A stretch of DNA of 32,264 bases from a virus: the IMG/VR virus record IMGVR_UViG_3300004457_000957, positions 1 to 32,264 of that record; one strand, given 5' to 3'. Position numbers and translations under genes: made by a program. Shown here in pieces: positions 1-27,703 of this stretch. The stretch's first letter is position 1, and each line of letters begins with the position of its first letter. The notes below the pieces were generated by a model. It did not search any database and was not told the DNA's origin. It saw only the letters and a program-made list of their open reading frames with translations.

Positions 1-3000
1 TCTTCTCCACCAAACATATCATGATGTACAATGTATTCAACTTCTGTAGAGTTTGGTCCTCTCTGGAACGTAACGTTAGCCGCTGTTGTTAAATTACTTG
101 GTGTTAGTCCTGGTATAGTAATTGTAAATGCTGTTGAGGAAGCATTTGCAACTGTAAAGTTACCTACTATTTTTGTATCGCTACCACTGTTTGTAATAGC
201 AACTGTGTCACCGTTAGTCAATAAGTTTATACCAACATCATTATTAATTGTTAATGTTGTTGTGTTGCTTCTAGTAAAGTTTGCTGTAGTATATGGGCCA
301 ACTGTAATAGCACTAACAATTTGATTGTTAGCATCATAGGCATATGGAGATGTAGTAATATCAAATACTAAGTTCTCTAATGGTGATAACAGTACAAGTT
401 CTTCTGGTCTTTCTTCACCGTATAATACTCTTTTAAATGTTACGCCGTCAAATCCTTCTACAGTTTCATTATTTTTTCTGTAAGTAACATTACCTGTAAA
501 TGTTCCTATATAATTGTTTACTTCGATACTACTATCAAAAGCACCACCTACATTATTAACATCATCCCAGCCTGCTGAATCCCAACCAAATGCTGTTTCA
601 TACATGTCCTTACCAAAACTACTACCTGAAGTTTTTGTAAATACGTTTGCATCTAATTCTGTACCTCTAAAGCCGCCGCCTACTTTTGTTTTAACTAGTC
701 CTAATGTTTTAACTAATGCTCCACTATTGACTGCCGCAAACATATTTGTAGCATCTTGTGTGTAACTTACATTTGAACTTGCACCTGCACCAAAATATGT
801 ATTGATGTCTTCTACAAATTGTGTTCTAACTTCCTGATCATACTTAAATATTCTTGCTGATGACGTAAAGTTTGCATTTGCTTGTACAGTTGAATTTGAT
901 GATATGTTAAGTAATACAATATTATCTGCTATTAGTTTATTATAACTATTGTATGCTACGTTACTGTTAGCACCTAGCAGTCTCCAATCCACTCTGTCAA
1001 ATACTAATTTAACTTTTCCTGATCTAACAATAGTATTAGCCAATGCATAATTATTGTACCAATTTTTATAATCAGTATCTGTAGACATTATTGTTTGATC
1101 ATCAGTATTGCCTGGGTCAAGTATTCTAACTTTACCTACAACTGGATCTGGATACGGCGGTTTATCAAAGTCACTAATCATTTGACCAGTTATATATTCT
1201 ATTGGTGTTTTCTTGCCGTCTTTGTATTCTCTAATTTTTGCAGTATAGGCTTTTGCTTCTTCCATGTAATCTAATACAGGATTAAAGTTATCTGGACTAA
1301 AGTCTATTCTTGTGTTTAAATCTTCTTCTTCTTTTTCAACATACAAGTAACTTGTTTTAAATGCCCAATCTAATTGTTTTTGTTCACCGTAAGCATACTT
1401 CAGCATCTCAAAGAAGAACTTGTTCCAATACTCAGTGCCTGCAAATACTGTATCTCTTAATAGTACAAGGAATGCTCTTAGTTCTGCTTGTAACGTTGCA
1501 TTGTTAGTATCTGTATAAATTTCTTTTTTAATTCTTACAGTTTCATTTTCTATTGCAATTTTTGTAAACTTAACAGTTTTAGCATTCCATTTCCAAAGAT
1601 GGAATCTATCTGTTGCTGAACCTCTTACCATTACAACTGCACCGTCTGGTAATCCGCTTTGTTTTAATGACTCTAGTTCTTTCTCACTTTGGACATTCAA
1701 TATTGCTTTTTCTTGCGAAGTAAATCTAATATTCTTATTATTAGAATTATCTACTCGTTCAATTGCATACCAATTGCTATCTATAATGTAAGTTCTAGTT
1801 GGCATTGAAGTTGCCCAGTTAGGACTTAGTGATTTAATTTTTTCATTTGCAAGTATTTCATTTAACACTTCTCGCATTACTCTTCTTGCTTCTACAGGAT
1901 TTTTAAATAATGTTTGTCTTGGTCTAAACTTAACACCGTATTTTTCTGCTTCACTTAGTTTGCTATTAGGAACTTCTTCGCTTAATGCATTTACTTCGCA
2001 TAAACTATCAATTAGTTTATTACTAATGTCGCCTGGTACTGAACTGTTATTATCGCCTTCACGTAATAGTTTCCAAGAGTTATGTTTTAATCCTAAAGGA
2101 TTAAGGTTTCTACTAATATTAATTTGTAGTATGTCGTCTTCTTCTCTTAAAGAACTTCCTAAGTTACCTGCAACAACTGATGTGTTACTTACAAATGATA
2201 ACGTATGTAGTCCTTGTCCAATTGGATCTGACAAGTATCTAGCAAGTTCTACTGTTGTGAACTTCCTGTTGTTTTTAATTCCTGCATACCCTGTAATTTC
2301 TTCTTTGTTTTGTATCCAGTAATAGTAATATGCTTTGAAATCACCTGTGTATGAATCGTATTTTACATCTGTAATATAATGCGATCCGTTCCTAGGTGTG
2401 CCTGTTCCTGTATACTCTATTGGTAATTGCTCTGACTCACACCATTCGTAAAGTGTAATACCACTACCTGGCATTGCTTTACCCCAATCTAGCCACCGCT
2501 GTCTGTTTGAACCTTGCTCATACCACTTGTATCTGACTGTTGATGTGTCCCACCAAACTTGGCCTACATTATCTTTACCAAAACTTGACCTTGCAATATT
2601 ATATGCTACTGGATCATTTTCGCCTACATATTCTATTTCTGCTTCTATAAATGCTGGAATGACTCCTTTGAATGGATCCCATAAATGATAATCCATTTCT
2701 TTAGCACCTGTATCATCATCATACAGTAATGCATTCTTAACAAATTTAGAATCTACTAAGTCTGTTTGTGCATTTATTAATGTTCCGTTTTCATAGTATG
2801 ACCATTTGCCACTAACATTATCAATCCAAACATTTGCAAAATCATTTTTACTTGTTGTGCTAATGCCAGCAAATTCTACTGCCGCATTTGCAATATCTGT
2901 TTCTTTATTATATCTTAAACTTTCTAATACAGCAACTCTTGAACTTTGACTGATTCCTCTATTAAGTCTTACTGGTCCGCCATTCTGTGCAGAACGTAAT

Positions 3001-6000
3001 TCGTATTGGTATAAGTCATCGGTAAATGTAACTGTTGCATTACCAAACATACTGTTAAAGTCTGCTGTAAGTGTATCTACACAAACAATTGATATTTCTT
3101 CGTCTATTTGGCCTGTCTGTAATTTATATCCTTCAGCATCTACATAGTCTGAAGCATTGCCTTTTACAGGATTACTTTCAGTGATTGATGTCTCATCAGT
3201 CATATACATACATAATAAATCATTGTTGTATTCTCCTGCTGGTAAACCTAAGTTCTGTAGCATACCTGGAGTTACTTCGTCTAATTCTATACCATCGTAT
3301 ATTGGTGATTCTATTCCTATAAATCCTATACCGCCACCGCCTCCGCCGCCGCCATAGCCTCCGCCACCGCTACCTGGACTGTATATAATTGAAAGATCTT
3401 TAGGATCGTAACCTGAGCCTATTAAACCTTGGTTCATATCATTTACTAAACTAAATGGAATGTCAGTATCAGAAATCAAATCAGGTAAACCTAATGAACG
3501 TTTTGCATCTCCTCTTTCAGAACAGTCAGGTATTTCTCTTGATGTTAAAAATACTCTAGCACCTGTTCCGCCAGCAAATAGACCTCTAATAGGATCGTAT
3601 CCACCTGGTGAGTCTAGTTTTGCATTTTGTCTTAATGGATCATATTGTCCTAAACCTGAGCCTGTGCCTGTGCCATCGTCTTCATCACCAAAGTTTATAT
3701 TATCGTATTCTAATGGAATACCAGTTGTTAAATCACTTGGGAATATTTTATATACTCCTCTGTCAATAACCCTTACACTTATAATCTCACCAACTGGTCT
3801 GCCTTCATTTAGATGTAATAGTGAGTCTGCTGTTACAACACTAATAACTTCAAACTTAGCAACTCTTTCTGGGAAGCCTTTTCCTGAACCTATTTTTGCT
3901 GTGCATGTAGCCGGGGTTGCTGTTGAATTAGGATCTAAATCTATAACTCTAACTTTAGGCGGATTTTCCATTGAATAACCGCTACCTCTATTTGATAAGT
4001 TAACTGAAGTTATTTGTCCATCTTGATTTAGATTCACGCCACTAACTGTAGCACCTGAACCTGGAGTCGATCCATCCCCAATATAAATTTTTACATTTGC
4101 CGCTGAACTGTAACCTGCACCTTGTATACCTACGCATACTTCTGTAATACCACCATGTGGACTAGGAACTGGAGTTCCGCCTACCGCTCTAAGTCTGTCG
4201 CCTACTGAATAGCCATCTCCACCTGATGTTTGTTGTTTGCTTACGTTAAAGAATGTTTTTCCTTCTGTTGAAGAAACACTTCCAAAACTTGCTGAAACAT
4301 TTGTTCCGTCTTCTAAGAATCTTGTGTATGTCGAAGTAACACTTCCAATACTGGTATTATTTGCACCTTGCACTACACCTACTGATGGAGGTACAACTAT
4401 TGCATCATTTGTTCTTGATTCGCCTGATGCAAAACTTCTAACTACATGGAAGTCTAATACTTCTTTATATGCTCCGCCTCTACATCCATCTTTAAATGTT
4501 AATGGTGCGTTAGTACAACTTGTAATTCTAATTGCTGGTTCTTTGTCTTTTGCACTCTTAGTTGCTTTATATCCATTACCTGCTTGACATAATATAGCAT
4601 TCATTGTTGCATCTACGCCGCCACCTGGTATAGTAATTCTTGTTCCATTAATGATTAATTCATCACCTGGAGTAAGATTACCTAGATCGCTTGTTGGTAA
4701 ACAACATTGTGGTGTAGGATATGACAATGGCATGTAGATTGGTTTTGCTGGTCTTAGTATCCCGTCTATTCTTTTCTTAGGAATAAATTTCAATACTGGA
4801 TTAGTATTAAAATCAGCATCATCTGAATTAAATGCTCTGCCGTCTACTTCTACTGGCGGCGCCATTTGATCTACGCCTGGAGCAAAACCTGTTCCTGGAA
4901 TATAACCTGGTGTACCTGGATACTGAACTAAACTAACAATATTGCCTGCACCTATGCCGGACATACTATCTAACTTGTTAGTATCAAATTTGCTTGTAAA
5001 TCTTTGTGTACTAGGATTCCATAGCAAGTCTAGGTTGCCTTGCATACTAGAATAATAGTCATAACTTCTACCTCTAATAGGTCTTGGTGCTATTTCTATT
5101 GGTGCTGGTACCGGAGCACTTAGAGGAATAATTATTCCACCTGAGACTCTTTGGAAACTTGTATTAACATACCTATCTGCACCTAATGGTGTATTGTCTG
5201 GAGTTGAAGGTTGCCATGTTTGTTTAACTTTCTTTCTATAAACACTTGGCAAGTAATTAAATCCGCTTCCTGAAGGATTACCAAATCCTCCAAAGTTATG
5301 CTGGAATGTATACTTGTTCGAAATATGGTACTTGGATATTCCGCCGGCATGTGTTACTTTAGTTTGTGGTGCACCTGCAGGTTGAACAAATGGACTTTGA
5401 TATCCTGTTCCGCCTTTAGTACCAGGGTTACCTGAACCGTAATTTACTTGTCCGTTGTTTGCTGGCAAGTTTGCACCACCCGGTGTTACACCGCTTGTTG
5501 ATGCTAAACCTGTGTCAGTATCGCTTGGATATTCTATATAGTATCTGTAAACATTACTGTCCTTATCAACATCTAATCTTACAAACTCTCCCATTGTAGG
5601 ATCAAAGTCAAACTCTAATACACCACAATACTTAACTTTACCTGAGCCCCCGGCTTGGAAATCTGTTAAATTGCCAGTTGCAGTTGATCGTCCAGTTGGG
5701 CCACCTGGCTTACCATATGGGTTACCTGCGCCACCTGCCTGATACGAACTTGCATAAGCACTAGAACCTGTTCCGCCTGCTCTTGAACCGTAACTATTAT
5801 ATCCGCCTCTGCCGGGCTGTGTTGTTCCAACTGATGCACCAATTGAAGGTGCTAGTAATTCTTGCTTCTCTACATTTGTTGCTTTTCTTATTGTTGAGAA
5901 AGAAGCAGTAGTTGATAGCAATCTACCGCCTGTTGTTGTTTTTGTTGTTGTTTGATAGAAGTCAAATTTGTCTGCCGCACTATACATATCAAATACAACT

Positions 6001-9000
6001 TTAACTCTGCCTTTACATTTAAATCTGTAATGCCATGTATCGTTTACATGCCCTGTATTTGTCGACTGCTGATTCTTTTCTCTCTTTATAAACGAACATG
6101 GTATTGGAGTTGAAACTATTACGTTTGCATTACCTGGTACTGTTGGAACCGTAGTGTTACCTGCAGGAACTGATACATTTGAATTTGATGTTGGTGGTAC
6201 CGGATCTACATAAACTGGAGGTAAATCTGTTCCACAAGGTGTTTTAGCAGTATGTGTAACCATTGCAGAAGGATTAATAACAACTGCACCTGTATTAGTA
6301 CCTGGTCCTTGTGCTACTGTTGATGTTGCTGGAGGAGGTGTACTTCCTGTACTTCCTGCAGGTCCACTTCCTGTTGGTGTTAGTAAATTAGGTATCTTAA
6401 CAAATGTGTTAATATTTGGCCCTTGTGTTGCAGTGGAGCCCATATTTATTAAGAAGTTTTCAGGTATAAAATGTTTTTGTCCGTTAAGATCTACTTCTCT
6501 TGATCCTCCTGCAAACGTATTTTGAATTCCGTTTAAGAAGTACCCAGGGTGTATTTGGACTTTAGTACCTTTGGAAATACCTGTTTTCCAAGTGCTTGTT
6601 TGATTGTCTACCTTACGAGCACTATTATTACCTGTTGCATCTACTTGTTTTACAAACTGTGCTCTTGTTCTTACCCAATTTTGTTTGAGTTTGTTAGTTT
6701 TAAAGTTCTGTTGTCTACCAAAGTAATTTCCTATACCGTTTATATATGCTTTACCATATTGTCCAAAGTCTACTAATGCATCTTGGCCTTTAAGAGCATC
6801 TGCATAGTTTACAATGTTAAGTTCATTAGATCCAATGTATGCTTTAGGGTTAGTAATAATGTTTGGAATAACTGATGTTGGTACTCCTCCAATTACTGGT
6901 ATAGTGACTGCAGGACTAAACTTATTAGGCGTTGTATTTTTCCAACCAGTTGTTAATGCTGTTCCAATATTGTAAGGAATTTTTCCAATAACTGGTGGCA
7001 TTACATGACTTTTAATTTTGCCTGCGTCTACATGAATTGTTTTATTAAGATTTCTTCCTATATTTAAACCATTTTGGAATGCGGCTGGGTTAGCCATCAT
7101 GTTATGTTGTATATTAGTTAAGTATGGTAACTTACCAATAACTTGTTTTGCGTTTATATTAAATCCTGGTATGTGAAGGTTATTAAGCATTGGTATAGAT
7201 ATAGCAAAACTTCCTTCATGTACCATAAAGCCACGTTTAATTTCTTGTTGGAAATTAAAGTCTTGCACCATTGCATCAATACTGTTTGTATTATTAAACT
7301 TAATAGCATTATTATTTAAGTGAACTACATCATGATCTAATGTTGTAAGAACTGGATTGTTATCTGCATTTTGAGATATTGACTGTGTATCATATGGAAA
7401 CACGCCACTTGTAATAATAGTATTTGCATCTGGAATGCTCTTAACTTTATAAACAACATTATAGTATCTCGGATCTATATTATGAACAGCAATTTTCTTA
7501 CCTGCATATCCGCTAGTGATACCGTGTGCTGTTGATGTAATTTTTATTTCTGGTAATAAAACATTTCCTGTGGTAGTGGATGATGTTGCAATATGCTTTC
7601 TAGTAATAACAAAACTATTATGATTAACTGCTTCTGTTGTGTAGTAACCACTATATTCTTTTGCATTAAGTTTTACAACTTCGTTAGAACCAATATCAAT
7701 ATTACTACCACATGTTATTCTTGTTTTACCAAAATAAGTATATGACAAACTTGCCGCTGTATTTTCATTATTTGAAAGTGTAGTATTTGCCGCCATGTCT
7801 TTAACTGCTTGAATACTTGTTCCAGTTTGATTTGTTTCTTTAATTTTAAATGATGTTGCTGTAAGATCACTAATAATAAATGCATTTGCATGTAAAGAAC
7901 AATTTGCACTACCTTCTGCATGTCCAAAGGAAACTGTTTCGCCATCTTCTAATGTAAATGGTATTGTGTTAATTAATATAACGTTGGCACCCGGCACTTG
8001 TGATGTTAATGCTTCTGCTGTTGCAAAGCCACTGGCCGCTGGTGATATACTTGTAATCGGTAATACTGCTGTTGTGTTTGGTCCAATAGCACTAATTGTT
8101 TTCTCTATCATTACTGGCGGATACAAGTTCTTTAATCTAACTTGTTTGTTTTCTATTAATTCTTCGTTTGTCCAAACAACAAATTTATCGCTAAGTTCAC
8201 CGTCTTTAATAATTAGATGGTAGTCTAAGTAACGGCCTGTGTCTGAACCTTGAATAAAGTTAGTATCTATATAATTAAATAAACTATCTCCATTTTTGTA
8301 TAGATATGTTGTAACATCTCCTTGCTCTTGTTCTACAAAACTAACTGTTGTGTTTGCAACTTCTTTAACTTTGTAAACATTGAAGTCTCTGTTTTCTGCT
8401 ATACCAACGTGTATAGTTTCATTTATGTCAGGCTGGAAACGTTGTCCTTCGCCAAACAATCCGCTGATGTCTGGAACACTAAATGTTTGATAATCTACTG
8501 ATCTTTCGTCTACATAACCTGCATTAGGTATATCTAAATACTTAGAATCAGTTACACCAGTGTAGTCAACTTTTCCTGTTGTTGGCCATAAGTTACTTTC
8601 TCTTACGCCAATTGGCTTTCTTAAGAATCTAGTTTGATCATCAATATCAATCAATATAGTTTCGTCGCCTTTTATGTCTGGAGTAATTTCAAATGTTTGT
8701 ATGCTCTTAGTTCTAATTGCAATCTTATCTTGTGTAGTAGTTTTAATACTAACCTTAGCACCTGCTATATCAGTTTTTAATGCACTTGTAAACTCGATAG
8801 TTCCTGACTCTACTAGTAAAATTGTAGCACCGCTTTTAAGCGAGCCACCTTGCAATTCATTAACATTATGTATTGTTAATTGTGTTGTAGTAGATGTGAA
8901 CTGTCTTTTATAATTTGTATTAAGTAATTTATTTCCATTAACAAAAACATCTAAATGTGGGTATGACAAATCAAACAGTTCAATATTTTCTGTTGCTAAT

Positions 9001-12000
9001 GCTATAGGTAATGCAATATTTACATCGCCTGTGAAAACTGTATCGGTACTTACTGCACCTGTAGAATCATTAGGGTCAACACGTTGTATATCTGCTGGCA
9101 CTGATGATGCACTAACAACAAAACTTATTTCGTTTCTTGAGCCTGCATCATATGTATAATGTGTTGTAGGTGTTAATGTTGTTGAATCTATTTTAACAAC
9201 TATATCATTTATTGTTGTTGCACCTGTTCCTAATGTTGCTTCGTTATCTACTGTTGCTACACTATGTCTTTGTCTTGTAGTGTAGTCTCCTTTAGTGATG
9301 TTAATGTTTGCCCAACTGCCGTCGCTATCATTAAGATTAAATTCTTTACCTGTTAGTACAAGTTTGTATCTATTAACAATACTGCCGCCGGATACTTCTT
9401 CACTCTTAACAGTTGTTGCTGTGACATTTGGTAAACTAGCATGAGCAGTAATTGTTGATGCAACTGCTACAATATTCGATGCTGTTGAGAAGTTAAAACT
9501 AATTGCATTTGCAGGACTTGTAAAGTTATCTGTAATAGTAACAGAACCTAAAAGTCCTGTAACGTTTGGACTACTTAACCTGCTACTTTCTGCTGTTGGC
9601 GTTCTAAATGTTAATGAACTATCTGATAAAACCACATTACCTGCCACCACTGTAGCCGTCACAGGCTCCGTGTAACCTTTACCTTGATTTGTTATAGTAA
9701 ATGTACTAAGTGACCCGTTACCTGCTACTACGGCGGTTGCTGTTGCTTGTGAGCCGCCTTGTGCAAGTGTAAGTTCAGTTGGTGTACTTATTTCTAAAGT
9801 AGGTGCAGTAAAATACTTGTGTTGTGGTGATAGCACATCAATTCTATCTATAGCACCTGTTGTATCTTCTGGGAATGCCAAAGTAATTAACTGTGGATTT
9901 TGCTTAACGTCAACTTTATCTATCTTAAGTTCTATAGGTTGATCGTTTTCTAAATCTCCAAACTCACCTGTTTTAATTGCCCATTCAGAGTATAAATTAA
10001 TGTTGCCCTGAACAATGCTATTACTTTTAGCAAGTTTTACAATACTGTTTGCTGTTCCTTTGCCTTGCAAGAAACCTGTATAGAATTCGAATTGTGTATC
10101 ATCATCTATATCTAAATTATTTAAGTAGTCTCTTTCTTGATATCCAAATACCTTTCTTGAAGTATCGTATATTTGTTTCTCTACTGGTATGAATCCTAGT
10201 TCATAATATCTGCCCATTGTTTGAGCCATGTTATCTAAGTTAGGTTTTAATTCATCACCTTGTATAATATAACCTTCTGATAAAAGTTTACCCTGCCAGT
10301 TTGCAGTTTTCTTACCTTTGACTTTTAATCTATTTTGCTTTTGTCCTATAACAGGATCAAAAATTGTATCGTTAAATTCTGTTTTGTTATCTAATATAAG
10401 TATGTGTTCCATTTGTTGTGTAAACAACATGCAACCATAAATTTGAGTACCTTCTGGTGCCTCAATCTGTATTTTATTATCTGTTCTTAATATTGCACAA
10501 TCTTGTGGAGTAATTGCTTTGCCAAACTGATCTAGCAATGCAAATTGATTTCTATCTACTCTGTTTATTTTTGAAATAAACTCTTTGTCTTTTTCAAAAA
10601 CAATTTTTGTCGCAAGTGGCGATAATTCTAAAACATTATTTGTTTCCCATCCGCCTGCAACAAAAAATAAGAATTGCTTACATGCATATATCCAACCACG
10701 TTCTTCGTTTATACTTGAATCGTAATTGCTAAAATTAAAACCTTGCTGTTCTTGATAATTTCCTAAGTCTATTAAAAATTGAAAAACTTCTTGATAACTT
10801 GTAAATTCTGTGTTATAATTAACTCGTTTAACTTCGCCTGTGGTATCTAAGAACCCTGTTGCTTTTACTCCACCTTCTTGTGGTAAACTAGCCAGCGAAG
10901 TCCATAACGTAGACATAAAGGAATCTGCACTTGGAACTAATGTAGGTGCTTGATAGAATCTATCTAAGTATTTTACAATTACTCCTGTGGAGTAACTTAC
11001 ATTTGGTGCCCAGTCAGTAAAGTTAGCAGGAGTACCTGCAACTTCTTCTTGTGTTGTTCTTTTAGTAGTATCAGGTGCTAATGTATTAAAGTAACCAAAG
11101 TTTTTATCGTAACCTTTTACTTTATAGCCATCTACTGTTTTTTCTATAATTACACCACTATAAAAGTTTCTACTCTTATAAGGTGAATTATGTATAAGTA
11201 GATCTATATTTTCTGCTGGAATAATCAAACTGCCTGATGTCCCTGTAGGACTAAATTGGTCTGTTCTTAATATTAATGTATCTTTATCTGTATAACCTGC
11301 AAGCCTATGTCCTAGTTTAACATTTACAGTTTGAAGTTTATTAACAAAGTCTGTTGTAATATTCAAGCCTTGGAACTTTAACCAACTGTAAATAAATTGT
11401 GTATAACCTATATTTGTTTGCAAATCATCTGCGTCTTCAATGCTAACACCATGAACTTTAAAATCTGCATTTGATTTAAAGTCAAAGTATGCTCTTGTAT
11501 CTTTATCTACAAGTTTAAATGATTCTGCTTTTGGTATTACAACATCTAATGGTTGTGCAAATACACTAGCAAACTTTCCTGGCTTTTGTAAAAGCATTGC
11601 TTCTGCAACTGCAAAAGGATAATCCTCAGAATACTTCCATGCATTTTCTACAGGAGCACCGTCGCCTAGTTGCCACGGGTTGTTAATTAATGTTGTATCT
11701 TTGTCAACTGATTCTGTTAGTGTGCTTGTTATTGCACTTGATGTTCCTGTTGGTATAGTTACAGTTGCATCTGTATTATTAGTAATATCAGTTGAGCCTA
11801 AATAATATTTTCCTTTGTAAGTTAAATCTGAGCCTTCATTAACAACTCCGCCTATAACAAATGGGAAGTTATCGTTTGCAACATAGTGCCAAACTTTTGT
11901 TGAAGGACTGTCTACTGTATATGCATAACGTAAGTTGTATACATTTGTTACATAGCCATCGGTATCTGCTAATGCAGTATTGGCTTGGTAGTCTTCTACA

Positions 12001-15000
12001 AAGTGACCTGTGTGTGCACCGCCTGGGCCTGATACTCTTGTGCCTGTTTTAAGTTCAAAAATACTGTTAATAGCAACAACGTTACTTGAAACATTACTTG
12101 CATCACTGTATCCGTATGGCCCGTAAATTGGTAACCCATCGAATGCCCAACCTACTTTTGGCGAAGCCGCTGTTGTGCTCCAAGCATCTAGGCCAGCACT
12201 TGCTGGTGTAATTTGGTAAACTCCTTCTGTGAGGGTTTCGTTATTTTTTACTGCATTGTAATTCCAAACACCCTCAGATTTCCAACTACCTTTAGCAGGA
12301 TTTACAATTGGTACGCCTGTGACTGTAACACCAATAAAGTTGCTTGGTATGTTTTCAGTCGCTTTAGATATTGTGTTATAAGTTACAAGTACAGGTATTG
12401 AATAAGTGTTATCTAAACTGCCACTTGTTATATAAGTGTTGTTGCTGTCATAACTACTTGTTAATTGATCAGTAAGCACAATGCTATTTGTAATTGCATT
12501 TGTATTTGATGTTCTAGCATTATTATATGTGGACACTAATGTTGACGAACCTGTTGCAACAATCTCACCTGGTGATTTTAATACACCGCTACTGTTAATT
12601 GGATAGTAATTACTTAATCCGGATCTTGCATAAGGATTATTTGTTGTGTATCTATCGTCAGTTACATTTTCACTATTGCCTAACCTAATAATACCTAACT
12701 CTAAATCACTCCACATAACAGTATTGCTAAGAGCGTATGTTGTTCCGTATTGTGTTTCCCACCAGGTTGGCTTATCATAGAATCCAAGCATTTCCCATGG
12801 ATGAGTGTGAGGTCTTACTGTATCGTAATAATATTCGTACCAGCCTCTCCAATGTCCTGGAAGATCAGTTGTTCCTTTATAATTCCATGTCCATTTATCT
12901 GTTTCATTATAAAATTCATTTACAACATGGTCTGCTTTATTACTGCCTGTCCAATTTGTAAAACTGTTACGCAACGTGTCATTGTACTCACTGACTTTAA
13001 CACTTGTTCTAAATGCACCTGGTCTAATGTTATGAACACTAAGTTTTGCATGTTGATCTGCATCACGTAATGATTTGAGTGCGGAATTGTATAACCTTAT
13101 TTCAAATTCTAATAATACGTCATCTCTTTTATCTCCGTTAAGAGTAGTTCTACTTCCGTCATGGCCTATAAGTGTTTTGATTGGTGTTTGGAAACTGTTA
13201 TCAGTTTCTATCTTAGGATGGAATAAAGGATATAATCCCATTGTACTTGGTGTCGGTGGACACTCAGCACTATCTCTATCCTTATCATAAAACTTTGCAA
13301 TAATATTATCATCTAGCAAAAAGTCAGCAAGTGCTGTTGCAGTAAATGTAATTTTAATTGGGTTTGTATTATCTATAGTATAATCTTCATCCACAAGTAG
13401 TAAATTATTCTTAGTGCTACTTCTGGTATGATATATTAGCAAACTGTTTTCTAATGTGTTTAGATCAGCATAATTTGTTAATGTATACTCTGTTCTAGCA
13501 ACATCATTTATAATAATAGTTTCTTTTGTAAAGTTATCACCAAAAGGTAAAACATATGAAGTATCAAATACTCCTTTACCTACACTGAATGATTTTAAAT
13601 TTCTTAAAACTGTTTCTAAAGCAGATTCCATAAACAGGCCTGCTTTGTTTAAATCAAAGTTGTTATTATACTTGTCAATTTCTTTGATTAAACGTTTCTT
13701 ATATTTGGTATATTCTCTGCCTACAAATCTAAATGAATCCACTAAGTTGTGTGGCTGGTCATCTAATAAAAACGCACCATGGATTAAATCATCATTTGTT
13801 TTTACAATTAAATCTGCTTTTGAAATATCTTGTGCAATGCTGTTAAAATTATTTTTGCCTAATGCAGAGCCAGTAAAATCGTCTTGCATTTCTAAATACT
13901 TTTTGAAGTGAGGTAAGTATTCAGGTTCTGCAATATTTGTAATAGTAGTATTAAGAGGATTTGATTTCCAACTTAAAGGAATTTCATATCTACTGTTGTT
14001 AATAAAGTTAATACCATCTGTAGTATTTGCTTCTATCTCAACTATGTCTCCTTTCTTAAGACTAAATGTTGTAAATTGTAATGCTCTATTATTATATGTG
14101 TATGCTGTTTGAATAGCATTGTTTACTCGTACAATTACATCTCTACCGCTAGGAGCACTTGTTTTTATAACAGGTACACATCCTATATTATAAATTGTTC
14201 TTTTGTCATCAAAGTCAGTTGTAGTAATTGTGTATTTTGTTTTTACATTCTGTCTTGAAGGAGCAGTAGCACTTTTAAAGTTACTGCTATATTTGTTTGT
14301 TCCGTTTTTAAAGTAATAGTCACCTTTAATAACTGTTACTGTTGAACTACCAAATGACGTATAAGTGTACTGGTCGTTCTTTAAAAAGTCTGTAAAAGTT
14401 ATTTCACTTACAGTTTTATAAGTGCTGTATGAAAGAGGAAAACCTAATTCAGTATCGTTAGCACCTGCACCTACTTTATAACCAAATATTTTTCCACCTT
14501 TAAAACTTGCTTGAGGATATGTACCTGCATTATCTAATGCAACTTTGTTATCGTCATAAAGATTAAATAATGGATCTTGGTTTACTCTTGCTTTACGTTG
14601 GACTTCTTCAAGGTCTCCGCCTTTTAAAATTAATTCTTTACCTAATTGGTTAAAGCCTTTATCAATACTGTAAACATCATTTTCTGCTATTGTAACCGAA
14701 CTTGTTAATGTAATAGAACTGCCTACGCCTGCTACTGTCCAAATTTTAACCCTATCTGTTGCACTCTCATTTGGAAATACAATAGTATCTCCATTTACAA
14801 GTAACCTAGTGTCTACTGTTACGTTGCTTTGTCCTATAATAGCATTCTTATTAAAACTTGTACTTGATACAGTTACTTTACCTTTGTATGTTCCGCCATG
14901 ATTAAAAAGTTCTAAATCTTTACTGAACTCTAAAATTGGTCGTTGTGCTCTATATTTTTTAGCAGGTAAACTATCGCCTGCATCTAAGAAGTTGTCTTCA

Positions 15001-15749
15001 TGGAACCAATGGTTAACTCTGCTCCATGCTGTTCCTGAATCTGCGCCATGCTCTATTACAATATAATCTTTTTTAGTTAAATCAGATCCGCCGTATGCTG
15101 TTGATGTGCTTTGTTCGTAATCAACTAGTCTTATAGATGTGCCTACACCTTGTACTACATATTTTCTATCTATTACAACTGCATCTCCTGGAATAATATT
15201 TACTCCAGTAAACTTAACAATCATTCCGCTTCTAAATGCTTTGCCACCTGTAGGTGTATATGTTTTCTTACCTATGATATCTTTATCAATTGCAATAGCA
15301 TCTGAAATACCTGTAGGCTGAATTGTAATTTCTGTTGGGCCTGTTAAACTCCAAAAGTATTCTTGGTAGTTTAAAAACTTATCAATATTGATAGGTGGTA
15401 AAAATGTTTGGTAGTTACTTGCAAATAGATGGTTATGATCTCTAACTGGTGCACCATAGTTCTTTAAAGTGTCAACAAACTCATCATAAAATATAACACT
15501 ATCACTATTACCTGATACTGTATCAATTGTGTTTATTACTGGACTCAATGCATACTGTTGTCTATCTGCATTGTACTCCCTAATAAAAGAACCTGCTAAC
15601 CCTGACTCTTCTCCAGTCTGGTTACCTATATATCCTGCAAGTGGTATAGTGTTTGCTTTACTAAATAACTGCTCAACTGTGCCTTCAAAGAAGTTCTTCA
15701 ATGCAGGCGTCTGCAGAATTGCTGGTAAAGTTTCTATAATTTTAGCCAT
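1..15749 (-). CDS. Giant virion structural protein (baseplate wedge/fibre, gp7-like), C-terminus beyond window
   Basis: One open frame begins at the ATG at 15749 (MAKIIETLPAILQTPALKNF) and stays open to the left edge, giving at least 5,249 codons. I checked every codon and found no in-frame TAA, TAG or TGA. It starts 3 nt after the gp6 stop with no strong Shine-Dalgarno, so translation is probably coupled to gp6. Landmarks in residues: HTHPWEMLG at about 981-989; a YHYH-like domain at about 1140-1300; a GxGY beta motif near 2020; a Pro/Thr/Gly linker at about 3120-3155; Gly-rich blocks at about 3310-3355 and 3424-3452; GxGY repeats at about 3840-3940; a poly-Gly run at about 4125-4140; DYHLWDPFKG near 4353; and an EQKQLDWAFKTS segment near 4790. 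The last resembles what I remember from cyanomyovirus genes annotated as gp7 or virion structural protein. T4 gp7 has 1,032 residues, so this is at least fivefold longer. Location after gp25-gp6 fits a baseplate part. The exact role (wedge scaffold, fibre or receptor binding) is inferred. No signal peptide or transmembrane segment was noticed. Confidence 0.9.
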   Translation of the reverse strand, partial: MAKIIETLPAILQTPALKNFFEGTVEQLFSKANTIPLAGYIGNQTGEESGLAGSFIREYNADRQQYALSPVINTIDTVSGNSDSVIFYDEFVDTLKNYGAPVRDHNHLFASNYQTFLPPINIDKFLNYQEYFWSLTGPTEITIQPTGISDAIAIDKDIIGKKTYTPTGGKAFRSGMIVKFTGVNIIPGDAVVIDRKYVVQGVGTSIRLVDYEQSTSTAYGGSDLTKKDYIVIEHGADSGTAWSRVNHWFHEDNFLDAGDSLPAKKYRAQRPILEFSKDLELFNHGGTYKGKVTVSSTSFNKNAIIGQSNVTVDTRLLVNGDTIVFPNESATDRVKIWTVAGVGSSITLTSSVTIAENDVYSIDKGFNQLGKELILKGGDLEEVQRKARVNQDPLFNLYDDNKVALDNAGTYPQASFKGGKIFGYKVGAGANDTELGFPLSYSTYKTVSEITFTDFLKNDQYTYTSFGSSTVTVIKGDYYFKNGTNKYSSNFKSATAPSRQNVKTKYTITTTDFDDKRTIYNIGCVPVIKTSAPSGRDVIVRVNNAIQTAYTYNNRALQFTTFSLKKGDIVEIEANTTDGINFINNSRYEIPLSWKSNPLNTTITNIAEPEYLPHFKKYLEMQDDFTGSALGKNNFNSIAQDISKADLIVKTNDDLIHGAFLLDDQPHNLVDSFRFVGREYTKYKKRLIKEIDKYNNNFDLNKAGLFMESALETVLRNLKSFSVGKGVFDTSYVLPFGDNFTKETIIINDVARTEYTLTNYADLNTLENSLLIYHTRSSTKNNLLLVDEDYTIDNTNPIKITFTATALADFLLDDNIIAKFYDKDRDSAECPPTPSTMGLYPLFHPKIETDNSFQTPIKTLIGHDGSRTTLNGDKRDDVLLEFEIRLYNSALKSLRDADQHAKLSVHNIRPGAFRTSVKVSEYNDTLRNSFTNWTGSNKADHVVNEFYNETDKWTWNYKGTTDLPGHWRGWYEYYYDTVRPHTHPWEMLGFYDKPTWWETQYGTTYALSNTVMWSDLELGIIRLGNSENVTDDRYTTNNPYARSGLSNYYPINSSGVLKSPGEIVATGSSTLVSTYNNARTSNTNAITNSIVLTDQLTSSYDSNNTYITSGSLDNTYSIPVLVTYNTISKATENIPSNFIGVTVTGVPIVNPAKGSWKSEGVWNYNAVKNNETLTEGVYQITPASAGLDAWSTTAASPKVGWAFDGLPIYGPYGYSDASNVSSNVVAINSIFELKTGTRVSGPGGAHTGHFVEDYQANTALADTDGYVTNVYNLRYAYTVDSPSTKVWHYVANDNFPFVIGGVVNEGSDLTYKGKYYLGSTDITNNTDATVTIPTGTSSAITSTLTESVDKDTTLINNPWQLGDGAPVENAWKYSEDYPFAVAEAMLLQKPGKFASVFAQPLDVVIPKAESFKLVDKDTRAYFDFKSNADFKVHGVSIEDADDLQTNIGYTQFIYSWLKFQGLNITTDFVNKLQTVNVKLGHRLAGYTDKDTLILRTDQFSPTGTSGSLIIPAENIDLLIHNSPYKSRNFYSGVIIEKTVDGYKVKGYDKNFGYFNTLAPDTTKRTTQEEVAGTPANFTDWAPNVSYSTGVIVKYLDRFYQAPTLVPSADSFMSTLWTSLASLPQEGGVKATGFLDTTGEVKRVNYNTEFTSYQEVFQFLIDLGNYQEQQGFNFSNYDSSINEERGWIYACKQFLFFVAGGWETNNVLELSPLATKIVFEKDKEFISKINRVDRNQFALLDQFGKAITPQDCAILRTDNKIQIEAPEGTQIYGCMLFTQQMEHILILDNKTEFNDTIFDPVIGQKQNRLKVKGKKTANWQGKLLSEGYIIQGDELKPNLDNMAQTMGRYYELGFIPVEKQIYDTSRKVFGYQERDYLNNLDIDDDTQFEFYTGFLQGKGTANSIVKLAKSNSIVQGNINLYSEWAIKTGEFGDLENDQPIELKIDKVDVKQNPQLITLAFPEDTTGAIDRIDVLSPQHKYFTAPTLEISTPTELTLAQGGSQATATAVVAGNGSLSTFTITNQGKGYTEPVTATVVAGNVVLSDSSLTFRTPTAESSRLSSPNVTGLLGSVTITDNFTSPANAISFNFSTASNIVAVASTITAHASLPNVTATTVKSEEVSGGSIVNRYKLVLTGKEFNLNDSDGSWANINITKGDYTTRQRHSVATVDNEATLGTGATTINDIVVKIDSTTLTPTTHYTYDAGSRNEISFVVSASSVPADIQRVDPNDSTGAVSTDTVFTGDVNIALPIALATENIELFDLSYPHLDVFVNGNKLLNTNYKRQFTSTTTQLTIHNVNELQGGSLKSGATILLVESGTIEFTSALKTDIAGAKVSIKTTTQDKIAIRTKSIQTFEITPDIKGDETILIDIDDQTRFLRKPIGVRESNLWPTTGKVDYTGVTDSKYLDIPNAGYVDERSVDYQTFSVPDISGLFGEGQRFQPDINETIHVGIAENRDFNVYKVKEVANTTVSFVEQEQGDVTTYLYKNGDSLFNYIDTNFIQGSDTGRYLDYHLIIKDGELSDKFVVWTNEELIENKQVRLKNLYPPVMIEKTISAIGPNTTAVLPITSISPAASGFATAEALTSQVPGANVILINTIPFTLEDGETVSFGHAEGSANCSLHANAFIISDLTATSFKIKETNQTGTSIQAVKDMAANTTLSNNENTAASLSYTYFGKTRITCGSNIDIGSNEVVKLNAKEYSGYYTTEAVNHNSFVITRKHIATSSTTTGNVLLPEIKITSTAHGITSGYAGKKIAVHNIDPRYYNVVYKVKSIPDANTIITSGVFPYDTQSISQNADNNPVLTTLDHDVVHLNNNAIKFNNTNSIDAMVQDFNFQQEIKRGFMVHEGSFAISIPMLNNLHIPGFNINAKQVIGKLPYLTNIQHNMMANPAAFQNGLNIGRNLNKTIHVDAGKIKSHVMPPVIGKIPYNIGTALTTGWKNTTPNKFSPAVTIPVIGGVPTSVIPNIITNPKAYIGSNELNIVNYADALKGQDALVDFGQYGKAYINGIGNYFGRQQNFKTNKLKQNWVRTRAQFVKQVDATGNNSARKVDNQTSTWKTGISKGTKVQIHPGYFLNGIQNTFAGGSREVDLNGQKHFIPENFLINMGSTATQGPNINTFVKIPNLLTPTGSGPAGSTGSTPPPATSTVAQGPGTNTGAVVINPSAMVTHTAKTPCGTDLPPVYVDPVPPTSNSNVSVPAGNTTVPTVPGNANVIVSTPIPCSFIKREKNQQSTNTGHVNDTWHYRFKCKGRVKVVFDMYSAADKFDFYQTTTKTTTGGRLLSTTASFSTIRKATNVEKQELLAPSIGASVGTTQPGRGGYNSYGSRAGGTGSSAYASSYQAGGAGNPYGKPGGPTGRSTATGNLTDFQAGGSGKVKYCGVLEFDFDPTMGEFVRLDVDKDSNVYRYYIEYPSDTDTGLASTSGVTPGGANLPANNGQVNYGSGNPGTKGGTGYQSPFVQPAGAPQTKVTHAGGISKYHISNKYTFQHNFGGFGNPSGSGFNYLPSVYRKKVKQTWQPSTPDNTPLGADRYVNTSFQRVSGGIIIPLSAPVPAPIEIAPRPIRGRSYDYYSSMQGNLDLLWNPSTQRFTSKFDTNKLDSMSGIGAGNIVSLVQYPGTPGYIPGTGFAPGVDQMAPPVEVDGRAFNSDDADFNTNPVLKFIPKKRIDGILRPAKPIYMPLSYPTPQCCLPTSDLGNLTPGDELIINGTRITIPGGGVDATMNAILCQAGNGYKATKSAKDKEPAIRITSCTNAPLTFKDGCRGGAYKEVLDFHVVRSFASGESRTNDAIVVPPSVGVVQGANNTSIGSVTSTYTRFLEDGTNVSASFGSVSSTEGKTFFNVSKQQTSGGDGYSVGDRLRAVGGTPVPSPHGGITEVCVGIQGAGYSSAANVKIYIGDGSTPGSGATVSGVNLNQDGQITSVNLSNRGSGYSMENPPKVRVIDLDPNSTATPATCTAKIGSGKGFPERVAKFEVISVVTADSLLHLNEGRPVGEIISVRVIDRGVYKIFPSDLTTGIPLEYDNINFGDEDDGTGTGSGLGQYDPLRQNAKLDSPGGYDPIRGLFAGGTGARVFLTSREIPDCSERGDAKRSLGLPDLISDTDIPFSLVNDMNQGLIGSGYDPKDLSIIYSPGSGGGGYGGGGGGGGIGFIGIESPIYDGIELDEVTPGMLQNLGLPAGEYNNDLLCMYMTDETSITESNPVKGNASDYVDAEGYKLQTGQIDEEISIVCVDTLTADFNSMFGNATVTFTDDLYQYELRSAQNGGPVRLNRGISQSSRVAVLESLRYNKETDIANAAVEFAGISTTSKNDFANVWIDNVSGKWSYYENGTLINAQTDLVDSKFVKNALLYDDDTGAKEMDYHLWDPFKGVIPAFIEAEIEYVGENDPVAYNIARSSFGKDNVGQVWWDTSTVRYKWYEQGSNRQRWLDWGKAMPGSGITLYEWCESEQLPIEYTGTGTPRNGSHYITDVKYDSYTGDFKAYYYYWIQNKEEITGYAGIKNNRKFTTVELARYLSDPIGQGLHTLSFVSNTSVVAGNLGSSLREEDDILQINISRNLNPLGLKHNSWKLLREGDNNSSVPGDISNKLIDSLCEVNALSEEVPNSKLSEAEKYGVKFRPRQTLFKNPVEARRVMREVLNEILANEKIKSLSPNWATSMPTRTYIIDSNWYAIERVDNSNNKNIRFTSQEKAILNVQSEKELESLKQSGLPDGAVVMVRGSATDRFHLWKWNAKTVKFTKIAIENETVRIKKEIYTDTNNATLQAELRAFLVLLRDTVFAGTEYWNKFFFEMLKYAYGEQKQLDWAFKTSYLYVEKEEEDLNTRIDFSPDNFNPVLDYMEEAKAYTAKIREYKDGKKTPIEYITGQMISDFDKPPYPDPVVGKVRILDPGNTDDQTIMSTDTDYKNWYNNYALANTIVRSGKVKLVFDRVDWRLLGANSNVAYNSYNKLIADNIVLLNISSNSTVQANANFTSSARIFKYDQEVRTQFVEDINTYFGAGASSNVSYTQDATNMFAAVNSGALVKTLGLVKTKVGGGFRGTELDANVFTKTSGSSFGKDMYETAFGWDSAGWDDVNNVGGAFDSSIEVNNYIGTFTGNVTYRKNNETVEGFDGVTFKRVLYGEERPEELVLLSPLENLVFDITTSPYAYDANNQIVSAITVGPYTTANFTRSNTTTLTINNDVGINLLTNGDTVAITNSGSDTKIVGNFTVANASSTAFTITIPGLTPSNLTTAANVTFQRGPNSTEVEYIVHHDMFGGE
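3330..3377 (-). repeat. Poly-glycine run in the giant protein
   Basis: The minus strand encodes GSGGGGYGGGGGGGGIGFIG at about residues 4125-4144, using mixed GGC, GGA and GGT codons, so this is not a simple one-codon expansion. It is a local GC-rich patch in an AT-rich gene. Likely a flexible linker or polyglycine loop. It precedes the C-terminal third, which carries the DYHLWDPFKG and DWAFKTS segments. Confidence 0.75.
3940..4230 (-). repeat. GxGY beta-repeat segment in the giant protein
   Basis: Three spaced copies of a G-x-G-Y-S signature (GDGYSVGD, GAGYSSAA, GSGYSMENPP) occur within about 100 residues, each followed by a short beta-strand-like stretch (for example VKIYIG and KVRVID). A related copy, GKGYTEP, lies near residue 2020 (about 9680). 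Such repeats are common in tail and fibre proteins of marine T4-like phages and usually suggest stacked beta structure. They are degenerate at DNA level, so this is an old protein repeat and not a recent duplication. Confidence 0.6.
5395..5830 (-). other. Gly-rich segments of the giant protein
   Basis: Two stretches are dominated by Gly with Ser, Thr, Tyr, Pro and Asn: about residues 3310-3355 (includes GRGGYNSYGSRAGGTG and GGAGNPYGKPGGPTG) and about 3424-3452 (includes GGANLPANNG and GSGNPGTKGGTG). They flank a more ordered block containing KVKYCGVLEFDFDP. The spacing of Gly is irregular, so this is not a strict collagen-like Gly-X-Y repeat. Such loops occur in phage adhesin tips and as flexible linkers; which applies here is not shown by the sequence. 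Confidence 0.6.
11847..12330 (-). other. YHYH-like domain inside the giant protein
   Basis: At about residues 1140-1300 of the giant protein the order of motifs follows the YHYH domain family: GVPIVNP, then VWNYNA, then VGWAFDGLPIYGPYGYSD, then GAHTGHF, then FPFVIGG. The core VGWAFDG-PIYGP block is the family's most recognisable part. The YHYH histidine motif expected before this core is absent, and LDAWSTTAA occupies about that place, so the fold is probably kept while the histidine cluster is not. The assignment is made by eye from known family motifs. Bacterial members are mostly secreted or surface proteins of unknown biochemistry, so a structural or adhesion role in a tail protein is inference. 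Confidence 0.7.
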
Positions 15750-15752
15750 TTA

Positions 15753-18700
15753 TTATCTGTCCGCTCTTAATACTTGTTGGTTAATTTTATCTACTATTTC
15801 TATATCGTTTACTGAAGCCGTGCTTAAGAATAACTGATATGGTTCTGCTTTGACTTGGAATAAATCTCCAAATGCTCCGGAAGTATTTTTTGGAAGTATA
15901 ACAATACTACCTATGTTACTGCCTAATCTTTGATGCACAAAACTTGATAATTCTGTAAAGTAAAAAGTCTCACCGTAGTCCCAATTCTTAACATCAAAGT
16001 ATGTGTTAAATGCACTAATGATTTTTGACTTAATCTCATTATCACTCATTGTTGTTCCTGGTAGTTTAACTACTTTAAACTTTGCTTGGTTTGTTGCATC
16101 TGCATCTGTTCCAAATAACAATTTAAATTCTGCACTCTTATAAACAATAGCATCACTGGCATTCTTAAACTCATCTAATTTCTTAAACTCTGTGCCCAAT
16201 TCTGCACTTGTTGGTGGTAACGGATATGTTGTTCCTGGAACATTTTTATATTTTTTAATTTCAGTGCTGTATGACTCTGTTAAAACAAGCATTTCGACTA
16301 TGTTACTAATACTAGGATCAATTCTTACATCGTTAGGTGCAACATGTTTCCATTTTAAAACAACTTCGTCATCGCCTTGAAGTGCTGTATTTTGTCCTGA
16401 TGCTCTACCATTTCTCACAAAATAATCTTTTGATTCGTATGCAGAAATACTATTTGTATTTGTACTACTTTTAACTAGTTCATATACTTTTTCATTTGCT
16501 GTATCGTATAATATTATTCCTGAGAATAAGCCTGATACATTATTAAAACTATCTATGTATGTTGCATCTTTAAGTATAATTACTTTTTGCTCTGATATTT
16601 TAACTGGATCTGAATAACTTGTAGGTCCTACAGTATCTGAGCCTATATCAACTTTTATAACTGTTTCTTTTCTTAAATCTACAATAGCACCTGTTAGTGG
16701 CCTATCATAAGTATATCCATCGAAGTCTTTGTAGTATTCAAAGAATATTAAATCACCTGCACTAACAAAATCTTCAAACTGTAATGGTTCATTAGGAACC
16801 TTATCACCGTCTGAGTCTACTGGCGATACTATAACTTTTCTAGCATCGGTATATCCATCATCATATTTTACAACGTCTGTTATTTCCCAAACTATATCTT
16901 TATCAAGTTTTCTTCTGTCTTGCTTGTATATAACATCAAATTTATCTTGGCTAATAGTACCAGTTCTATCTGTTACAAAAGTATGTCTCATGACTGTTGG
17001 CTTTAAATTACCATCCCAGTTAGTTACAGAAAGTGTTCCTTGGCCTGCGGCAATCTGTGTTGCATTTGCAGTATTTTTTATTCTACCCTGAACTGTGCCT
17101 GATGCTTTGTCTAATGTTGTTCCATTGGATTGTGCAATAAATACTTTTTCAGTTCCGTCTGTCATTTGGTCTCTGTATAAAACATTACCACCTGCATTAT
17201 AAATGTTACTGTTAAACGTTGCAGTAGTAAATGATATGTTTACATTGTTTGGCCAAAAGTTTAAAATGCCTGAACTATTGTTAAGTGTTGCTTTTTGGTA
17301 ATTTGAATTTACTGTAAAAATTCCTGATTGCAACTTATCGTATGGTGCTGTTTGAATTGAGACTGCCTGTGCATCGACAAATAAATTACCTGTTGTTGCA
17401 TCGTCATTGCCACTTCTATAAATTCCTAAATTTGTTCTCCACTGTATTTCTACGTCATGGTATTTTGTATCTCTAGTTCTAAGAGGTATTTGAGGATTAC
17501 CATTTAACGGATCATAATACTGTCCTGTTTCGCTACTGATGTAAACATTGCCTTTACCATCTTGATAATCAGGATGCATACTCCAAGTAAATGTTTCTTT
17601 ACCGCCTGGCTTAAAGTTTACTTTAGTTAAAATAATTTGATCTTTGCCTGCTGAGTTTGTTGTATCAGTTACTTTAATATTTGTAATATTATAAAACTTA
17701 AGATCCTTTTTACTTTGGATAATATATTTCTGTCCTCTGATTGTAACAGTATAACTGTAGTCTGCGCCAACGCCTGGATTATATACAAATTGTAATAACC
17801 AACTAGCATCTAATCCTGTTTCTGATGTATCTTGATTGTATTGTGCATTCCAGGTTGCTGTTTTATTTAAATTGTTGTTAGTAACTACATACCAGTTATC
17901 TAGTTCAGCATCATATCCTAAACCAAATGTTCTTCTGTTTTCTAATTCGTTTACAACTGCTGTTATTTCTGTTGGAGTAAATGTTCTTCTAATTGTTGAT
18001 ACAAATTCATCTGCTCTCCAGCCATGTTGTATTCTTGCACTAAGTTTAATAGGACCAACTGATGTTGATACTCCACTTGACAAGCCGCCATTATTGTCTA
18101 TGCTAACAATTCTAACCCACTTGTACTGCGATACATCTGCTGGGTTTACAAACTTAAGATAGTTATTTGGTGCAAACATCTTAAATGCATTGTTATTAGT
18201 TAATAAGATGCTGTCTATTGTAGTTTTATCTTCTAGGAAGTAACCTGTTACACTATCGCTTACTACTGTAGGCAATGTCATCCATCTAATGTTTGCTCCG
18301 GTTAGTTCCCATTTTGTTTCGTCTTCGGTCTTCCATGACTTTCTAAATTTGTCATAACCAAAGTTTATAAGTTCTTGTTCTTTAAGCATTGCAGGTATCT
18401 GAACTGCTGTTGCTTCTAAAGGTGTAATACTATTACTAAGTTGTAATGTCTTACCTAAATTCTTAATTTCTGAGTACAATGCTCCGTCATTAGCAAATGT
18501 ATCTACATTTTGATATGTTCCAGTTGGGTCATTAATATCAATGTATCTGCTATGACCTGCATGTGTTTTATTAATTGCTTTTAGTTTTGTAATGTTTGCA
18601 CTTTGACTAAATGGAAATACATTATAGTCTTGGGCACTTACCATTCTATTTTGAGTATAATATGTTTGTGGTGCTCTTTCTTTAATTGCTTCTAAGTCTT

Positions 18701-19935: not shown

Positions 19936-20304
19936 TTATACTAACTCCTCGTTTATAAATTCTAAGTAAAGTGTGTCTGAAGTTCGTAGCACATTAAATG
20001 AAATATCAACTTCACACCTTACAGTATGATCTTCTACTAACATTCTAATGTCATCAAGTCTAACTCTGCTATCAGTTTCTATAATTCTTTCTATATCTTC
20101 TCTAACATCACTTTCTGTCATGGCATCCATTGGATTCATAATTATATCATGTATCATACTTCCGAAGTTAGGCCTCATGAATCGCTCACCACGTCTTGTG
20201 TAAAAATGGTTAAGTAAGTCTCTCTTAATTAACTCCTCATCACTCAAGGTAAACGGCGCCTTATTCTTATCGACTGTATTGAATCCTCTAAATATTGTTG
20301 CCAT
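19936..20304 (-). CDS. 25: Baseplate wedge protein gp25
   Basis: Encodes 122 residues from the ATG at 20304 (MATIFRGFNTV). gp25 is the small lysozyme-like-named but non-enzymatic wedge core protein that, with gp6 and gp53, forms the wedge core and contacts the sheath. Family features seen: the central LNHFYTRRGERFMRPNFGS segment (about 32-49), which matches the conserved TxxGxR-x-P-x-FG pattern, then an acidic helix (ESDVREDIERIIE) and C-terminal strands. An upstream in-frame ATG at 20325 would add seven residues, but MATIF fits the family better. Neither start has a Shine-Dalgarno. A late-type GATAAATA lies only 5 nt before the chosen ATG, so the message may be leaderless. It is the first gene of the gp25-gp6-giant operon. 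Confidence 0.93.
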   Translation of the reverse strand: MATIFRGFNTVDKNKAPFTLSDEELIKRDLLNHFYTRRGERFMRPNFGSMIHDIIMNPMDAMTESDVREDIERIIETDSRVRLDDIRMLVEDHTVRCEVDISFNVLRTSDTLYLEFINEELV

Positions 20305-20309
20305 ACTAG

Positions 20310-20317: not shown

Positions 20318-20364
20318 AAAATCATTAAAAGAAGTTTTAATAAAGATGTATGCCAGAATTACTT

Positions 20365-27679: not shown

Positions 27680-27703
27680 GTTGTTAATATCATTGGAGAT
27701 CAA

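Follow-up and report, generated by a model that had tools for sequence, protein, structure and literature searches.

Background

In phage T4, the gene for the baseplate wedge protein gp7 (1,032 amino acids; aa) lies after that for gp6, and gp8, gp9, gp10 and others are kept as separate genes. In cyano- and pelagimyophages, the gp7 place of the T4-like gene order is taken by a non-gp7 protein, VrlC, which is stated to substitute gp7 (PMC7029224). In the RaK2-like phages, giant proteins of 3,323–3,342 aa (RaK2 gp070, CBB_236, 121Q gp582, Munch gene 262 and XaC1 312) are encoded directly after gp6, each by a single gene. Published mass spectrometry found CBB_236 in virions (21 peptides, 7.72% coverage; PMC5259590 Table 4), and also phAPEC6 gp245 (381.88 kDa, 17 peptides, 7.6% coverage; PMC7247149 Table 1). 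The latter was identified as the orthologue of 121Q gp582, because their masses (381.88 and 381.87 kDa) and those of the neighbouring proteins (131.18 kDa in phAPEC6 and 131.21 kDa for 121Q gp583) agree within 0.03 kDa. Here we describe an enlarged member of this family, encoded by a giant open reading frame (ORF) directly after gp6 in the virus record IMGVR_UViG_3300004457_000957 of IMG/VR; the entire record, 32,264 bases, was analysed and is called the window below. The giant probably is a baseplate wedge protein that takes the place of gp7 and includes an arm facing the host, a reading to which we give a probability of about three in four.

The giant open reading frame

The giant ORF (3..15749, minus strand) runs for 5249 codons from an ATG start without a stop codon, and its 3' side is open at the contig edge. 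An initial annotation, made from the sequence alone, had reported this edge-open frame; the stop-free reading and the relatives confirm it, and the accompanying statement that it could not be due to chance is borne out by a probability of about 10^-180 for 5249 codons without a stop at the base composition of the window. Its size was correctly put at five times that of T4 gp7 by length. Because the window is the complete IMG/VR record, the end of the gene was taken from relatives. The nearest, G002, has a complete gene of 5417 aa with 92.6% amino-acid identity over 5236 aligned residues, and a second, G001, has one of 5403 aa with 84.6% identity over 5218. The window protein aligns as far as residue 5257 of G002, so that the stop, which the annotation had suggested seeking by extension of the contig, should lie about 160 residues past the window; in G001, the giant is followed by genes of about 209 and 644 aa. 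The complete protein would have a mass of about 592 kDa, judged by G002. In the window, G001 and G002 alike, the giant is a single gene. As for stops in other copies of the locus, a point that the annotation had also raised, another IMG/VR record, L004, (99.7% identical in core I, described below, and 100% at the query stretch) keeps the frame open over 4016 codons.

Purifying selection acts along the giant frame. The ratio of nonsynonymous to synonymous substitution rates (dN/dS) between the window and G002 was 0.06–0.25 throughout 21 windows, each of 250 codons, and that between the window and G001 was 0.08–0.54, with the maximum at residues 2001–2250. Over its whole length, therefore, the frame is translated and under constraint.

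Position next to gp6 and family membership

Only 3 nucleotides separate the ATG of the giant from the stop codon of the gene upstream, which encodes a gp6-like baseplate wedge subunit of 1393 aa (15753..19934, minus strand; PHROG 10646, E = 0; PHROG 219, E = 1e-18). The giant adjoins gp6 in nine of the ten cultured relatives whose genes were translated, the exception being Salicola phage SCTP-2. Within the stretches fetched, the gene order of the window recurs in MIJ3, Munch, XaC1 and 121Q, and the order hub, gp25, gp6, giant in CBB and RaK2.

As judged from profile matches, the giant is a member of PHROG 10938, a known but little-studied virion protein family (3324 positions) of RaK2-, PA5oct- and Atu_ph07-like jumbo phages. 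The family profile matched residues 1–1999 with an E-value of 1.2e-234, residues 1750–3749 with 2.1e-48 and residues 3250–5249 with 6.9e-73. The ten cultured relatives have 3,323–4,555 aa, and each is encoded by one gene. Besides the RaK2-like giants, they comprise MIJ3 gene 389 (3,857 aa), SCTP-2 gp140 (3,807 aa), Vibrio phage 2.275.O gene 424 (3,771 aa), Atu_ph07 gp180 (4,449 aa) and Phosso 294 (4,555 aa). The top matches of residues 1–1999 in the phage collection were the PA5oct/MIJ3/Paride group, with 31–32% identity over 85% of the query. Core I alone matched 57 of 50,697 phage records (tblastn, E ≤ 1e-5), all longer than 280 kb save two partial Klebsiella records (86 and 110 kb). Because nearly all of these records exceed 280 kb, the window phage is probably a jumbo phage as well.

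Conserved cores, an insert and a variable middle

In an alignment of the window protein with 22 relatives, 12 of them uncultured and 10 cultured, three conserved cores could be delimited (coordinates on the minus strand): core I (residues 1–1050; 12600..15749), core II (1346–2010; 9720..11714) and core III (4285–5249; 3..2897), which continues past the contig edge. Together they comprise about 2,700 residues with many invariant positions. Between cores I and II lies an insert (residues 1051–1345; 11715..12599) that is absent from all ten cultured relatives aligned, and between cores II and III is a variable middle of 2,274 residues (2011–4284; 2898..9719), of which only one block (2326–2560; 8070–8774) is partly conserved. 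Identity to 11 uncultured relatives was at least 43% in 28 of the 36 core blocks of 75 residues each and at most 42% in 26 of the 30 middle blocks. The middle is 182–486 residues long in eight cultured relatives (182–184 in the RaK2-like giants; 222–486 in MIJ3, SCTP-2 and Vibrio 2.275.O), 1,423 residues in Phosso, 1,430 in Atu_ph07 and 1,992–4,178 in the uncultured relatives. All ten cultured relatives keep one core order, which is also that of the window, and the alignment indicates that the giants grow by insertion between the cores. In short, the giant is ordinary in kind, as a member of a known virion family, but enlarged, modular and bigger than all ten cultured relatives examined.

The middle is rich in glycine in stretches. 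G-x-G-Y repeat modules lie at residues 3844–3926 approximately (3972..4220, minus strand), and the window protein contains eight such motifs in total, as against a mean of 1.7 and a maximum of six in 500 shuffled sequences. The enlarged middles of Atu_ph07 and Phosso likewise contain G-x-G-Y motifs, although both giants differ in lacking the YHYH insert and the pieces of Atu_ph07 are only 24–39% identical to the window protein. A stretch of PHROG 438, a gp8-type profile (positions 185–301 approximately), matches within the giants of Atu_ph07 and Phosso and, with a weak E = 0.002, within that of the uncultured relative G024; the G-x-G-Y modules presumably are the modules of this stretch. Among the 11 middles scanned against Pfam, two (G003 and G008) contained GLEYA and PA14 domains, and that of G005 had Ig/cadherin-like domains and Hint matches below the cut-off; the other eight, including that of the window, gave no Pfam match. 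Three further pieces were scanned: the middle gene of the split G012 had GLEYA above the cut-off, G045 had GLEYA below it, and the end of the first G012 gene had no match.

The insert contains a YHYH domain (PF14240, residues 1117–1299; 11853–12401, minus strand) that scored 64.7 bits (cut-off 25). A metal-dependent hydrolase function has been predicted for this domain, with a histidine triad and an aspartate as the proposed metal site (PMC7824862). We aligned 13 members, among which the window, G001 and G002 are nearly alike: D1204 and D1253 are kept in all 13, and in no column is a histidine shared by as many as 12. Because the histidines are not conserved, an enzymatic role of the domain is doubtful here. 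Residues 1–1999 matched 353 phage records, and the YHYH domain alone matched 300, all of them cyanophages, whereas none of the 57 records matched by core I is a cyanophage. A cyanophage origin of the giant was thus rejected, the cyanophage matches stemming from the YHYH domain. For the relation to VrlC, this comparison of phage records was the one made, and in it cyanophages were reached through the YHYH domain alone.

Size, spread and splitting among uncultured relatives

The core I alignment scan of IMG/VR gave at least 599 matching stretches, at least 586 of which are relatives among the matches listed, so the family is common in IMG/VR. The search yielded 34 contigs, and the genes of 17 of them were fetched: 13 genes are intact over their complete length (5,178–7,548 aa), two run off the contig end, one (G012) is split and one (G015) is broken. 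Four further complete giants, G024, G042, G045 and G064, have 6,236, 7,219, 7,914 and 5,265 aa; relatives of up to 7,914 aa thus exceed the window protein. In the literature searched, subscription papers and preprints excluded, no account of uncultured members or of this size range was met, which does not prove their absence. The break of G015, at codon 2058, looks like an error because G011, identical in the tree segment, is intact.

Fifty loci chosen from 126, in 48 records (with G001 again included), were searched with the core I and core III alignments. Core I was found in 44 of the 48 records, core III in 47 and both in 43. Both cores stand in one frame of 3,719–7,915 codons in 37 of these 43, near-duplicates included; among the 37, G049 is truncated where its contig stops, and the last piece of core III of G057 is in another frame. 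In four of the 43 (G025, G033, G047 and G055) a separate gene holds all or most of core III, and in two (G023 and G026) the first 470 residues or so have a gene of their own. At the junctions of these six and of G012, a stop codon is followed by a new start without frameshift overlap, so that a frameshift artefact was rejected for these splits; an Rfam search of seven stretches at the split points gave no intron match.

Three of the splits share one place: the last match of the upstream gene in G033, G047 and G025 is residue 4846 of the unsplit 7548-aa protein of G003, and the downstream gene begins to match at 4945, 5026 and 4906, respectively. G025 has a second break near 4160, and the cut of G012 also falls in this middle, between a last match at 4112 and a first at 5021. 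The initial annotation had named homologues split at conserved positions as a point against a single frame; such forms do exist, three of them cut at a common place, but they are a minority, and the window, G001 and G002 are unsplit. In a tree of 52 core III segments (with a long-branch warning, and with G023, G026 and G055 left out), G012, G025, G033 and G047 fall in one poorly resolved group of eight that also holds the unsplit G003, G045 and G042 as well as G028, whose N-terminal part is off the contig. None of the ten cultured single-gene forms falls within the clade of the uncultured giants. Parsimony makes the single gene the older state, from which the splits arose later in one or more events.

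Domains that might act on the chain were found in some of the relatives. In G023 and G026 (L209 and L210), whose first genes of 789 and 815 codons are 70.6% identical, a domain of about 66 residues is copied on both sides of the break; it had no Pfam match in the G023 pieces and has the look of a pairing domain that the splitting of the gene left behind. The N-terminal half-gene of G047 (L211) ends in an intein/Hint domain (residues 4872–5025 of 5038; PF14890, 50.5 bits, cut-off 35.8), and residues 3064–3190 of G005 form a Hint-like domain below the Pfam cut-offs. These Hint domains could cut or splice the chain; a model built on the two matched only G047 and G005 among 50 chains or chain pieces, and not the window protein. 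The natural split versions could aid structure solution piece by piece.

As to provenance, the 5,265-aa member G064 (L206, L208) comes from a contig of 335 kb that is assigned to a Neomarinimicrobiota metagenome-assembled genome (MAG), a second contig of which carries the same match; the placement is either a binned jumbo phage or a hint to the host. The record title of a distant member names the Red Sea.

Predicted structure

The AlphaFold model of core I (mean predicted local distance difference test score, pLDDT, 80.4; predicted template modelling score, pTM, 0.66) is of mixed alpha/beta type. Searches with Foldseek gave no match in the PDB at E ≤ 0.001 for core I or core III, and when six queries were compared with PDB sequences, no credible match (best E = 0.031) and thus no solved relative was found. 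With VIA-align, a beta domain of core I (residues 738–824; 13278..13538, minus strand) resembles small domains that occur in tail and baseplate proteins of phages, such as 8ck1_B (Z 9.4, root-mean-square deviation (rmsd) 3.3, 76 residues) and the P1 baseplate chain 9vzk_Y (Z 9.2, rmsd 2.3, 78 residues). The core I matches lie mainly in this domain, with some rows at 501–589, and include many tail, connector and baseplate proteins and, at lower Z, bacterial pilins; that with the T4 baseplate chain 5iv5_A (Z 6.3, rmsd 2.8, 72 residues) is below the trustworthy level of the tool. Rows for core III were confined to the beta domains at its end (the best being 8jov_1 with Z 11.0 and rmsd 2.2 over 79 residues, model 974–1053), which in G002 lie beyond the end of the window. 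In BFVD, the best row for core I was a 'YHYH domain-containing protein' of an uncultured phage (E = 3.1e-83), and the structural protein of Atu_ph07 was among the best rows; on the predicted models, these look like the same family, and weaker rows include tail fibres.

Proposed role and alternative explanations

The gene position, the family, the core-insert-core layout, the selection on the frame and the virion presence of two cultured orthologues are the observations on which the wedge role, at about 75%, is built. In the mechanism that we propose, cores I–III would replace gp7 with a wedge scaffold packed against gp6 and against adjoining wedges; there would probably be one giant chain per wedge, presumably uncut in the virion. 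Projecting outward, the YHYH insert together with the middle of 2,274 residues would form a host-facing adhesion arm, possibly binding a receptor, and lineages may swap and enlarge this arm by domain insertion. A further and rather doubtful extension is that one chain of 0.59–0.87 MDa per wedge does the work of T4 gp7–gp12, reaching from the interior of the baseplate to the edge that faces the host. The single-chain state would then be optional, as the gene is cut in sister lineages, in some of them at a common point; the halves would be held or rejoined by the duplicated 66-residue domains (G023, G026) or by the Hint/intein domain (G047).

Several points weigh against the wedge role. The giant has no sequence similarity to gp7, and neither core I nor core III has a PDB fold match at the threshold used, so that a gp7-like function is argued from position and from the failure to detect gp7. 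The model of core III is poor (pLDDT 68.9, pTM 0.33). Because the middle of the window protein itself has no Pfam domain, its adhesive role is argued by analogy with the relatives, and conservation of the YHYH histidines is lacking among the members aligned. In SCTP-2, the gp6 match (231,305) is about 92 kb from the giant (127,770–139,193), and therefore the linkage of the giant with gp6 is not universal. Finally, the PHROG category of family 10938 is 'head and packaging'.

The initial annotation had rightly recognised a giant gene, which proves to lie in the gp7 position of a T4-like baseplate cluster and to belong to a virion protein family, but its suggestion of a fusion of wedge and fibre functions encoded separately elsewhere found no support. 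If gp7, gp8, gp9/10 and fibre genes had truly been joined, the location of the giant after gp6 would be explained, as would the lack of gp7: PHROG 964 (gp7) was found in none of 11 giant-bearing genomes but in all three T4-type controls (with one stray match among 14 bacterial and archaeal control genomes), whereas PHROG 219 (gp6) was found in ten of the 11 (missing in G024) and in all three controls. Likewise, PHROG 438 (gp8 type) and PHROG 958 (gp10) had no full-length match in the 11 genomes, a failure by sequence that is also compatible with diverged versions of gp7, gp8 and gp10; partial matches were a gp10-like C-terminal stretch in the fibre gene of MIJ3, a different stretch within a 2243-codon frame of that phage and a weakly matching one in Vibrio 2.275.O, and PHROG 958 matched none of the giants. 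The recurring PHROG 438 stretch in three giants also leans towards fusion, as do these partial matches; however, T4 gp8 matches that profile at 3–86, 139–185 and 441–478 and not at 185–301, so that the stretch is a shared module rather than gp8. Moreover, hhalign gave no match of five giant segments to T4-type gp7, gp8, gp9 or gp10 (best E = 0.13), the gp6 control reaching E = 1e-4 and a probability of 57%, and the mid-split forms are found among the uncultured relatives, all ten cultured ones being single genes with the same core order. Since no similarity to gp7–gp10 was detected, these searches lend no support to a fusion of T4 wedge genes, and we consider it unlikely. Cutting of one chain into several smaller virion proteins is similarly improbable: the Hint domains of G047 and G005 and the separate genes that make the parts in some relatives would suit a polyprotein, but the Hint model has no counterpart in the window, no protease site was seen, though no search for one was made, and the coverage of 7.6–7.7% in the virions of the orthologues decides neither way.

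The adhesion-type domains of some relatives, the G-rich stretches of the middle and the separation from gp6 in SCTP-2 could also point to a tail fibre or adhesin that merely follows gp6. The three conserved cores with their many invariant residues, and the adjacency to gp6 in the other nine cultured relatives, make this quite improbable, and G001 and G024 have a separate gene with a tail-fibre match downstream of the giant. Tape measures are also very long proteins, and the frame ends at the contig edge; nevertheless, the mixed alpha/beta model of core I and the baseplate synteny speak against a tape measure, and other contigs keep the frame open under purifying selection, so that a tape measure or an assembly artefact has hardly any probability. 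The wedge role in the gp7 position with a host-facing arm is accordingly preferred. Giants of a widespread phage group have been annotated as 'hypothetical' or under 'head and packaging'; the comparison assigns them to the baseplate cluster and the gp7 position, separates a conserved scaffold from swapped parts at sizes of up to 7,914 aa, and offers a testable model of a contractile baseplate rebuilt around one chain.

Other genes of the window

Upstream of gp6, the minus strand encodes a gp25-like baseplate wedge subunit (19936..20325; PHROG 261/43), a gp5-like hub with an endolysin-type C-terminal match (21459..23927; PHROG 13211, 10457), a hub-region virion structural protein (23930..26446; PHROG 11190), a baseplate wedge subunit that is gp53-like by place (26449..26748; PHROG 7145) and a virion structural protein (26748..27578; PHROG 12050). 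The plus strand follows with a gp55-like late-transcription sigma factor (27671..28567; PHROG 12791), a gp47/SbcD-like nuclease subunit (28572..29588; PHROG 100) and a gp46/SbcC-like subunit (29588..31357), the last recognised by its order, as in MIJ3, and by reading of the translation only. The category 'head and packaging' given to PHROG 10938, 11190 and 12050 looks wrong, as these genes sit in the baseplate cluster.

The gp6 place itself varies among the relatives. In SCTP-2, a second very large gene of 3,096 codons (L038:4606-13896) is directly before the giant, at the place expected for gp6. G024, a contig of 250,519 bases (L219), has a 1,509-codon gene there, yet PHROG 219 does not match it. 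The gp6-like gene of Vibrio phage 2.275.O (L073:9983-13846) is annotated with a carbohydrate-binding module 5/12, and wedge genes besides the giant may likewise gain binding domains.

Between gp25 and gp5 of the window, an ORF on the opposite strand (20581-21303, plus strand) has a translation with the motif G-H-S-F-G-G, which is typical of alpha/beta hydrolases; it is a possible esterase gene within the baseplate cluster. Next to gp46, an ORF on the plus strand (31347-31778) shows, by eye, a motif resemblance to GIY-YIG nucleases.

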